Below are positions 6,574-9,464 of a DNA stretch of 64,000 bases, in pieces. A program made the position numbers and the translations under genes. A model generated the notes under the pieces. That model was not told the origin of the DNA, ran no database searches, and was given only the letters and a program-made list of their open reading frames with translations. This DNA is from Chelatococcus composti (GTDB taxonomy: Bacteria; Pseudomonadota; Alphaproteobacteria; Rhizobiales; Beijerinckiaceae): NCBI RefSeq assembly GCF_014201415.1, contig NZ_JACHEH010000002.1, forward strand, positions 248,001-312,000, read 5' to 3'. The stretch's first letter is position 1; each line of letters begins with the position of its first letter.

Positions 6574-8436
6574 ATGCCTTCCTTCAACTACTTCCTTCCG
6601 TTCGTCGAGAGCGCATCGTTTCTCGTGCTGTCGTCCGTGCTGCTCGCGGTTCTCGCGAAGCCGCTGGCACGCCGGCCGCTCGCCTGGCAGATCACAGTGG
6701 GCGTCGTCTTCGGCCTCGTTGCCCTGGTGAGCATGCATCGTCCGGCTGTTCCCCATCCGGGCATGCTGTTCGATGCGCGCAACGTGCTGGTAACGCTCGC
6801 CGCGCCCGTCGGCGGCATCCTGAGCGCCACGATCACCGCCTGCATGGTGCTGGTGATGCGCTTTAATGCGGGCGGCACCGGCGTTACGGCCGGGCTCATC
6901 GCCATCGTCATGTGCGCACTGGCCGGATCGGCCTACCACCTCTACCTGCGGCACACGCGCCGCGAGCTGAGCTGTCGGGACCTCCATGTCCTCGGCGCCG
7001 TGGCGGGCATCCTGCCCCTGTTTGCGCTCGTCGCGCTGCCAAGCTGGGAGGCGACAGTCGAAACACTGCGGACGATCGCGGCCCCGCATATCATCGTGAA
7101 CTGGCTCGGTGTCGAGATCACGGGCATGCTCGTCCTGTGGGACAGGGAGCGGCGCGCGGCCGTGCAGGCGCTCCGTGAGACCGAGCTGCTGCGGCGCGGC
7201 ATCGTCGACAATGCGCCGGGCGTGCTCTTCCAGCGCGTGCTGCATCCGGACGGCCGCATCTCCTTCCCCTTCGTCTCCAAGGGCGCCATCGACATCTTCG
7301 GCGTCGAGGCGTCCGAGATCATGCGAAATGCCGAGAACGTCCACCGCCTCGTGCACCCGGAGGACTTTGCCACCTATCGCGAGGCGCTCGACGTCTCCGC
7401 CCGCGACGGCGCGCCGTGCAACGTGCAGGTCCGCATCATCCGCCCCGAGGACGGCCGCACTGTCTGGATACGCACCCAGGCCTCGCCGCGCGCGGGCCGC
7501 AACGGCGAGATCATCTGGGACGGCTTCGTCATCGACGTGACCGACCGCATCGTCGCCGACGAGCTGCGGGCCGAGAACGAGCGCTCCCGGCAGCGCACGC
7601 TGCACCAGCTCGCCGACCGCTTCGAGCAGGGGGTCGGGCAGGCGCTGCGCCAGCTCTCGCGAGCGGCCGACGACATGCGGGCAGCGGCCGGCAACCTGGC
7701 CACCACCGCGCAGGGCACCAGCCGCAAGGCAACCGAGGTGGCTGCCGACGCAGAGGCGACCTCCGCCCATGTGCGCACGGTGGCCGGCGCGGCCGAGCAG
7801 ATCCACGCCTCCATCGACGAGCTCACCCGCCAGTCCATGGTGACGGTGGACAAGGCGCGCGAGACCTCCGAGCATGTCGCAATGACCCGGGCCGACGTCG
7901 ACGGCCTCGTCGAGGCAGTGCAGAAGATCGGCACCATCGTCGAGTTCATCGAGGACATCGCCAACCAGACCAATCTCCTGGCGCTCAACGCCACGATCGA
8001 GGCCGCGCGCGCCGGCGCCGCCGGCCGCGGCTTTGCAGTGGTGGCGGGCGAGGTCAAGAGCCTCGCCGTGCAGACGAGCCGCGCAACCGCCGAGATCGCC
8101 GCCAATATCGAGACCATCCGCAACGCCTCCGTCGCGGCGGTGCGGGCCGTGGCCTCCATGGACGGAACGGTGGCCGAGATCGGCCAGGCCGCGTCGATCG
8201 TCGCCGACGTCGCCAAGGCCCAGTCGCGCGCCGCCGAGGAGATCGCCGCCAGCGCCCGCCAGGCGGCAACGAGCACCCAGGCAGTGTCGAGCAACATCGG
8301 CGACGTGCGGCTCGACGCCCAGAGCGCCGGCGTCGCCGCCGAGCAAGTGCTGCAGGCGGCGACGGAGCTCGACGAGCAGGCCCTCGCCCTCAACGAGGCC
8401 GTCGACGCCTTCGTACGCCAGGTCCGCTCCGCCTAA
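6574..8436 (+). CDS. methyl-accepting chemotaxis protein with a LytS-type 5TM sensor and PAS domain
   Basis: The 620-residue protein has three parts. Residues 1 to about 190 hold five or six hydrophobic segments with [18 protein letters not shown], which resembles the 5TM-5TMR_LYT sensor of LytS-type kinases. Residues about 205-320 form a PAS/PAC fold. Residues about 340-615 are a cytoplasmic chemoreceptor signalling domain, with the hairpin tip [21 protein letters not shown] near 460-480. There is no periplasmic ligand pocket of the usual kind and no obvious HAMP domain. It is expected to signal to CheA/CheW; no che genes lie in this window. The ligand is unknown. Confidence 0.9.
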
Positions 8437-8443
8437 CAGATAG

Positions 8444-8456
8444 TTGACTCAGTCAA
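8444..8456. promoter_or_regulatory. palindromic operator in front of the MarR-GNAT gene
   Basis: TTGACTCAGTCAA is a perfect 6-1-6 palindrome 40 bases upstream of the MarR-acetyltransferase start. It could also serve as a -35 element (TTGACT). MarR-family proteins usually autoregulate through such short inverted repeats, so this is the probable self-operator. Confidence 0.6.
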
Positions 8457-8495
8457 ACAATCACAGGATGCTGCCGCGATGGGAGGGTTCTACCC

Positions 8496-9464
8496 ATGGT
8501 GACGGCAACACTTCGCCATGCCGGGACAGGCATGGCCACGGGCAGCACGCTCGACGATCGCATCGCGGCCGTGCGCCGCTTCAACCGCTTCTACACGCGC
8601 GAGATCGGCTTCCTTCACGAGCACCTGCACGACAGCGGCTTCGTGCTAAGCGAGGCACGCGTGCTCTACGAGCTCGCCCAGTGCGGGGAGACGACCGCGA
8701 CCGAGCTTCGCCGCCGGACGGGGATCGACGCCGGCTATCTCAGCCGCCTGTTGCGCCGCTTCGAGGAGAGGGGGCTGGTCGCTCGCCGCGCCTCGCCGGA
8801 CGACGGGCGCCGCTCTCTCCTGTCCCTCACCGAACAGGGCCGGGAGACCTTCGCCGGTCTCGACGCGGCAGCCCGCCGTGAGGCCGGGGCGCTCATCGCG
8901 CCCCTGACGGAGGACGCGCAGGAGCAGCTGGTCACGGCCATGGCCGCGCTGGAGAATGCGCTTGGCGCCGGCCGGCTCGATCCGGCCCGGATCGTCCTGA
9001 GGGATCCCCGTCCAGGCGACTTCGGCTGGATCGTCGCCCGCCACGGTGCGCTCTACGCCGAAGAATATGGCTGGGATGCGACCTTCGAGGGACTCGTGGC
9101 ACAGGTGATCAGCGACATTGTGCAGAATTTTGACCCCGCACGCGAGCGCGTCTGGATCGCCGACCACGACGGCATCAGGCTGGGCTCCATCTGCCTCGTG
9201 CGACAGTCCGACGAGGTGGCGAAGCTGCGCCTGCTGTTCGTCGAGCCTGCGGCACGGGGGCTCGGCCTCGGCCGGCGGCTGGTGGCCGAATGCATCGCCT
9301 TCGCCCGCGCCGCGGGCTATGCCCGCATCACGCTGTGGACCAACGACGTCCTGACCACGGCCCGCGTCATCTATGCCAAGGCCGGGTTCCGCCTCGTCGC
9401 CGCCGAACCCCGCAGGAACTTCGGCAAGGATCTCGTCAGCGAGACCTGGGAGCTCGACCTCTAG
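8496..9464 (+). CDS. bifunctional MarR-family regulator / GNAT acetyltransferase
   Basis: The 322-residue protein joins two domains. Residues about 35-145 form a MarR winged helix, with the wing segment PDDGRRSLLSLTEQG. Residues about 165-320 form a GNAT acetyltransferase with the acetyl-CoA loop GLGLGRRL and the typical ending YAKAGFRLV. This fusion is a known family; the acetylation substrate is generally unknown. GGGAGGG lies just before the ATG; a later ATG at residue 13 is possible. It stands alone, 59 bases after the chemoreceptor gene, and ends 10 bases from the convergent malic enzyme gene. Confidence 0.9.
   Translation: MVTATLRHAGTGMATGSTLDDRIAAVRRFNRFYTREIGFLHEHLHDSGFVLSEARVLYELAQCGETTATELRRRTGIDAGYLSRLLRRFEERGLVARRASPDDGRRSLLSLTEQGRETFAGLDAAARREAGALIAPLTEDAQEQLVTAMAALENALGAGRLDPARIVLRDPRPGDFGWIVARHGALYAEEYGWDATFEGLVAQVISDIVQNFDPARERVWIADHDGIRLGSICLVRQSDEVAKLRLLFVEPAARGLGLGRRLVAECIAFARAAGYARITLWTNDVLTTARVIYAKAGFRLVAAEPRRNFGKDLVSETWELDL

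Follow-up and report, generated by a model that had tools for sequence, protein, structure and literature searches.

A palindrome conserved ahead of MarR-GNAT fusion genes is probably the operator of their own promoter

Introduction

What is the function of a perfect palindrome that stands just ahead of a gene in which a MarR DNA-binding domain is fused to a GNAT acetyltransferase domain? The question is raised by the window, a stretch of 64,000 nucleotides from Chelatococcus composti, in which TTGACTCAGTCAA occupies positions 8444-8456. A sequence-only reading had described a perfect 6-1-6 palindrome about 40 bases before the fusion gene; re-checking the sequence bears this out, and 39 bases separate position 8456 from the ATG at 8496. 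A chemoreceptor gene (6574-8436) precedes the palindrome, with 7 bases from its stop codon to the site.

MarR, MexR, OhrR and HucR repress their own genes from a palindromic operator that overlaps the promoter; a MarR protein that represses itself and a palindrome lying over a promoter are already known and nothing unusual. Comparison with homologous loci strongly supports the palindrome as a conserved operator ahead of the MarR-GNAT gene, by which the fusion protein very probably turns its own synthesis on and off. Such self-control is very probable because the site stands before this gene even in bacteria that are only distantly related. The features of the locus are the following:

8438..8462, no strand: extended operator, approximately ArwTAsTTGACTnAGTCAAcTAwnT in the homologue logo (logo of 108 sites and flank symmetry)
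8444..8456, no strand: operator core TTGACT-C-AGTCAA (perfect palindrome, conserved, PWM score 34.4)
8444..8449, plus strand: -35 element TTGACT, the left operator half-site (xAxxxT lies 17 nt downstream in homologous sites)
8467..8472, plus strand: -10-like GATGCT, with A at position 2 and T at position 6, after a 17-nt spacer (sequence and homologue spacing)
8481..8487, plus strand: Shine-Dalgarno-like GGGAGGG ahead of the ATG at 8496 (sequence)
8496..9464, plus strand: MarR-GNAT fusion gene, 322 amino acids (Pfam, both domains)
8646..8813, plus strand: MarR winged-helix domain, residues 51-106 (Pfam MarR_2, E 3.8e-14)
8730..8768, plus strand: recognition helix, residues 79-91, AGYLSRLLRRFEE (AlphaFold2 helix; class-specific residues 78-82)
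9114..9416, plus strand: GNAT acetyltransferase domain, about residues 207-307, with the acetyl-CoA loop RGLGLGRRL at 254-262 (Pfam, Foldseek)

Results

A MarR domain and an intact GNAT domain in one protein

The N-terminal domain scores 53 bits against PF12802 (curated cut-off 27), placing the protein in the MarR family, and the C-terminal domain exceeds the curated cut-offs of two GNAT families (PF13508, 51.8 bits; PF00583, 49.5 bits). Both domains were found in all 28 proteins scanned, the window's included, and R254, G257 and G259 are invariant among them, so that the R/Q-x-x-G-x-G/A cofactor loop is present. The AlphaFold2 model (mean pLDDT 83.8, pTM 0.53) has a helix at residues 79-91. 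Foldseek detects the GNAT fold of small-molecule enzymes, namely PA4794, PA4866 and phosphinothricin acetyltransferases, with TM-scores (normalised by target length) of 0.69-0.78; unlike the fold, their substrates are not transferable, since identity is only about 15-21%. Among the matches listed (the best 60 of 142, 8 of 8 and the best 50 of 836, E <=0.001), no full-length fusion occurs; the structure matches listed include no close relative with a known substrate, and the GNAT matches are generic. Assignment of a substrate from structure was dropped on these grounds.

The palindrome is conserved upstream of homologous fusion genes

The MarR-GNAT fusion family has at least 574 confirmed stretches in a scan of GTDB. 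We collected homologous loci from related genomes, the GTDB collection (the best 80 of at least 574 loci) and 397 genomes of the host's order, using titles of metagenome-assembled genomes as printed. The sample comprises the loci whose proteins match that of the window best (L001-L012, L015, L016 and L046-L153) and leans to the window's own type, class A, because it was chosen in this way; weaker or partial matches (L013, L014, L017-L030) were left out of the conservation count. This gives 122 loci including the window's own, 121 of them with at least 120 nt upstream (L102, with 31 nt, was dropped). Several of the 121 are close kin and two belong to class B.

Within 300 nt upstream of these 121 genes, the best match to TTGACTNAGTCAA has no mismatch at 31 loci, one at 36, two at 25, three at 19, four at 8 and five at 2; thus 67/121 loci have a site with at most one mismatch and 92/121 a site with at most two. 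Sites of the latter quality are found in 11/12, 57/79 (GTDB set) and 24/28 loci of the three sources. As controls, the 300 nt past the genes contain no match with three or fewer mismatches at any of the 121 loci, and the reversed pattern searched upstream gives none with at most one mismatch, 6 with two and 16 with three. The clean evidence is therefore the 67 loci with at most one mismatch, where the reversed control gives none. Isolates of Actinobacteria are among the carriers (Nocardia, L091, and Amycolatopsis, L117, one mismatch each). The sequence-only reading had held that absence of the motif upstream of orthologues would speak against it; the motif is instead present for most homologues, the two Actinobacteria isolates included, and comparison strongly supports the autoregulation it had predicted.

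A palindromic TTGC...GCAA variant replaces the usual motif at four loci (L005, L050, L104, L108), three others (L055, L056, L088) have degraded, half-decent sites, and no convincing site was found upstream of L092. At L008 the two-mismatch match at -220 is probably due to chance; a different long inverted repeat, TTAATATCAATT...AATTGATACTAA, lies just upstream of that gene. In three cases from genus g56 (L012, G413:C32:4391 and G311:C60:182932), about 230 nt separate the operator from the matched gene start, and at L012 a stretch resembling a dispersed palindromic repeat lies between the two. One genome has two adjoining MarR-GNAT-like matches on opposite strands (G029:C38:211730-213642, partly L007), which share 49% and 32% identity with the protein of the window.

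The left half-site coincides with a -35 element

A logo was built from sites with at most three mismatches to TTGACTNAGTCAA located no more than 130 nt from the anchor. The conservation of its core is partly by construction, because the sites were picked by similarity to TTGACTNAGTCAA; the flanks and the -10 region are free of this bias, as neither the -10-like element nor the flank symmetry at 8-9 nt served as a criterion. Over 109 sites, the positions 8 and 9 nt away from the centre reach a symmetry of 0.66 and 0.86, while the control gives 0.22 and 0.28. The window copy of the extended operator is symmetric only in part in its outer portion.

An xAxxxT hexamer follows TTGACT at exactly 17 nt in 67/108 homologous sites, and at each spacing of 12-16 or 18-23 nt in just 0-5 of the 108. 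Sigma-70 promoters have a 17-nt spacing and these key hexamer positions. Because spacing and key positions match, TTGACT would serve both as half-site and as -35 box, and the overlap with a -35 proposed in the sequence-only reading is strongly backed by this comparison. The distance from operator to start codon varies among the 108 aligned sites. A generic promoter consensus scan of the window reported nothing at the operator, since the GATGCT hexamer is weak. Overall, the palindrome overlaps the promoter of its own gene and is conserved in orthologues, as is characteristic of MarR autorepressors. Judged by sequence, the bound protein may alternatively be an activator, acting over a weak -35, instead of a repressor.

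No dispersed regulon is visible

The site is singular in its surroundings. Shuffled sequences give a mean of 0.23 matches with at most two mismatches, and the window has a single such place, 8444-8456. With a PWM derived from 106 distinct homologous sites, the window's own copy left out, this site scores 34.4, compared with 2.9 for the runner-up in the window and a top score of 15.9 over 20 shuffled windows. In the whole genome (3,715,391 bases, 24 contigs), exact TTGACTNAGTCAA occurs once, as the window copy.

Genes nearby or far away are often under the control of MarR proteins, so the operator could be real and yet serve a small dispersed regulon, with the GNAT domain acting as a sensor (of acyl-CoA, for example) rather than as the output. 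In the 397 genomes of the order we found 41 exact sites in 38 genomes, 23 of them directly upstream of MarR-GNAT genes. Two lie ahead of MarR-only genes (a paralogue at L182 and the unrelated-looking gene at L185), and a third, at L190, precedes the likely true start of a porin-like gene, although it falls in a mechanical ORF; these three are what the dispersed reading can draw on. Against it, the exact sites that precede neither MarR-GNAT nor MarR-only genes, the one at L190 included, number 16, whereas the reversed control pattern has 26 hits (a total summed by eye), and 13 of the 16 are inside mechanical ORFs. The genome of the window has 19 places with at most two mismatches versus 12 for the reversed pattern; its sole one-mismatch site is within a 766-codon ORF, and the 14 of its 18 other near-sites that were scored with the PWM reach at most 13.8 against 34.4. 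No further operators before other genes were found in the same genome. As non-self sites are below the control and the near-sites of the own genome are weak, no dispersed regulon is visible in either data set and we rejected it as a candidate. The retained cofactor loop also argues against the GNAT domain being a mere sensor, and overall we regard this alternative as unlikely. The motif had also been put forward as a lead to further regulon members; this expectation does not hold, given a single site in the own genome and 16 non-self sites against 26 in the control.

Recognition helix and operator type vary together

More distant MarR-GNAT fusions (about 28-36% identity) have different palindromes in the equivalent place, which we group into classes B and C. 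The 20 loci of these two classes outside the conservation sample are a hand pick of the full-length weaker matches listed from the 397 genomes of the order. The class B palindrome TTGTATNATACAA occurs with at most one mismatch in 9/12 loci (missing L158, L160 and L162) and the class C palindrome CTGACTWAAGTCAG in 10/10, each consensus being derived from the very loci counted. Downstream controls contain neither motif at three or fewer mismatches (0/12 and 0/10), and the reversed patterns upstream give 0/12 for class B and, at three mismatches, 2/10 for class C. The classes are largely exclusive: the class A motif is absent upstream of all 22 class B and C loci at up to three mismatches, the class B motif appears in 6/119 class A loci at three mismatches, and the class C motif in none (best, four mismatches).

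Residues 78-82, at the start of the recognition helix, are mostly D-A/P-G-Y-L in class A, D-S-G-L/Y-M/V in class C and E-K-S-T/S-V/I in class B. D78 and G80 are found in 98% and 95% of 110 class A rows and in 10/10 class C rows, and the operators of these two classes have a TGACT core in common; the 12 class B rows have E78 (92%), K79 and S80. By sequence, the start of the recognition helix changes along with the operator type across the three fusion classes. Within class A, a TTGC half-site occurs in 31/110 loci, and residues 39, 87, 73 and others associate with TTGA or TTGC; a specificity code at this level was set aside, as single-residue associations are confounded by ancestry. The class C operator starts 17-20 nt ahead of the first in-frame start codon in 9/10 loci (L164-L173), and in 5/10 its second half is preceded by TTGAC at a distance of 17-18 nt. 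Because of these distances, this operator seems to lie over the -10 and the start and not over the -35, which suggests an operator over the -10 of a leaderless transcript.

These observations bear on whether the site is bound by a regulator other than the fusion protein. At L185 (G112:C258, 2925-2937), TTGACTTAGTCAA lies just ahead of a stand-alone MarR gene that BLAST does not match to the fusion; the operator may thus be shared by a further MarR subfamily. Conversely, L220 (G239), a MarR-only homologue (56% identity) that has a class A helix, has no site in 700 nt upstream (best, four mismatches). Both points would fit a different binder, which we nevertheless consider very improbable, given that the operator type tracks the recognition helix over three fusion classes and that the motif also stands ahead of the MarR half alone: the second exact site of G261 (L182, G261:C16, about 131351) precedes a MarR-only paralogue of 162 amino acids. 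The six stand-alone GNAT homologues have no site with at most two mismatches in 700 nt upstream (best, three mismatches).

A further alternative is auto-acetylation, in which the GNAT domain would modify lysines in the MarR domain to which it is fused, thus tuning DNA binding to acetyl-CoA. There is a precedent in the review PMC11254643: SlyA, a member of the MarR family, reportedly binds DNA less well when one of its lysines is acetylated. The window protein has lysines only at residues 243, 295 and 311; with the first at 243, its MarR domain is free of lysine. Among class A proteins, 9/110 rows are free of lysine throughout residues 20-150, and the share of lysine in any one column is at most 38/110. 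Auto-acetylation of MarR lysines is thus disfavoured by the sequences and has very little probability in our estimate, while a variant in which other groups or partner proteins are modified may be envisaged. Finally, it is most improbable that the palindrome is merely a symmetric -35 or the terminator of the chemoreceptor gene, as TTGACT being near the -35 consensus and the stop codon only 7 bases away might suggest, given that conservation extends to the right half GTCAA and to the outer flanks, two other fusion classes have other palindromes in place, and a scan found no terminator-like site.

An EamA transporter gene follows a subset of the fusion genes

EamA is a family of small-molecule transporters. 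A neighbour analysis in which GC3 decided between ORFs brought out an EamA gene. Of the 116 class A loci whose downstream sequence is 300 nt or longer, 23 have it directly after the fusion gene on the same strand (17/76 GTDB loci and 6/40 others). L005, L008, L050, L053, L063, L067, L079, L090, L112 and L140 are among these 23, L005 being from the window's own genus; 8 of the 23 are Microvirga and 4 come from one genus of the order. The match begins 28-105 nt past the gene end, except at L051 (340 nt); it is strong at L067 (PF00892, E 5.3e-38) and weak at L125 (E 1e-5). No EamA match occurs at any other position in any locus, nor downstream of the 22 class B and C loci; one of the six stand-alone GNAT genes (L218) is followed by EamA. 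The other recurring neighbours are mainly transporter genes shared among Microvirga (up to 13 loci). In the window itself there is no EamA gene, the next gene is oppositely oriented, and the best EamA match of the genome is distant (29%, L222). The EamA neighbour is a hint that a small molecule may undergo acetylation and then export. The sequence-only reading had suggested that the motif could lead to the substrate of the acetyltransferase; the hint came instead from this neighbour, which the window lacks.

Discussion

We consider it highly probable that the palindrome is the operator of MarR-GNAT on its own promoter, and favour a model in which dimer binding, self-repression and release by a ligand together form an inducible acetylation switch of one gene, or sometimes two. 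A dimer of the N-terminal MarR domain would bind TTGACTNAGTCAA and, once bound, would cover the -35 and exclude RNA polymerase, so that the gene represses itself; autorepression is favoured because the left half-site is the -35 of the gene's own promoter. A ligand would then free the repressor from the operator. Because there is hardly any other operator in the genome, the output of induction would be the protein itself and hence more GNAT activity, the enzyme being part of the repressor. At about a fifth of the loci, the co-directional EamA transporter would be induced alongside. The GNAT domain would modify the inducing compound or a close relative and so reset the switch, with export in some species. 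An acetylation switch of this kind is favoured because the cofactor loop is kept, the GNAT fold is that of small-molecule enzymes and an EamA neighbour recurs. In this scheme we infer direct binding by the window protein, repression over activation, ligand release, co-transcription of EamA and the substrate of the GNAT domain, which would be the inducer or a relative of it.

The system resembles MarR, MexR, OhrR and HucR in its winged-helix MarR domain, its short palindrome at the own promoter and a presumed dimer with ligand release. It differs from them in that the regulated gene is the regulator with its fused enzyme, with no dispersed targets detected. PutA, BirA and NadR are trigger enzymes, at once enzyme and regulator. 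As in these proteins, DNA binding and enzyme activity would reside in a single polypeptide (predicted here from the domains and the own operator), although the domains, MarR and GNAT, are unrelated to theirs and the target is mainly the own transcription unit. In type III protein acetyltransferases, as described in PMC11254643, a regulatory domain likewise stands N-terminal to a C-terminal GNAT domain. The ligands of their regulatory domain are effectors such as cAMP, NADP or amino acids, whereas the fusion has in this position a DNA-binding domain of the MarR family, for which an operator is present at the gene itself. Among the open-licence papers listed, and in PMC11254643, PMC8007912, PMC8070244 and PMC7641849, no description of the fusion family, its operator or its promoter was found; the motif strings occur in three unrelated papers.

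The fusion family thereby gains a defined operator, a promoter and a prediction. More tentatively, MarR-GNAT fusions might constitute a widespread self-contained switch, in which one gene is the sensor, its main target and the enzyme that clears the MarR-releasing compound by acetylation, with EamA export in some species. A compound that induces the promoter would be a candidate substrate of the fused enzyme, and a promoter-reporter would for this reason be a direct screen for the GNAT substrate, the EamA neighbour pointing first to small exported molecules. The three operator classes, with their matching recognition helices, would provide a natural data set for the rules of DNA specificity in MarR proteins.
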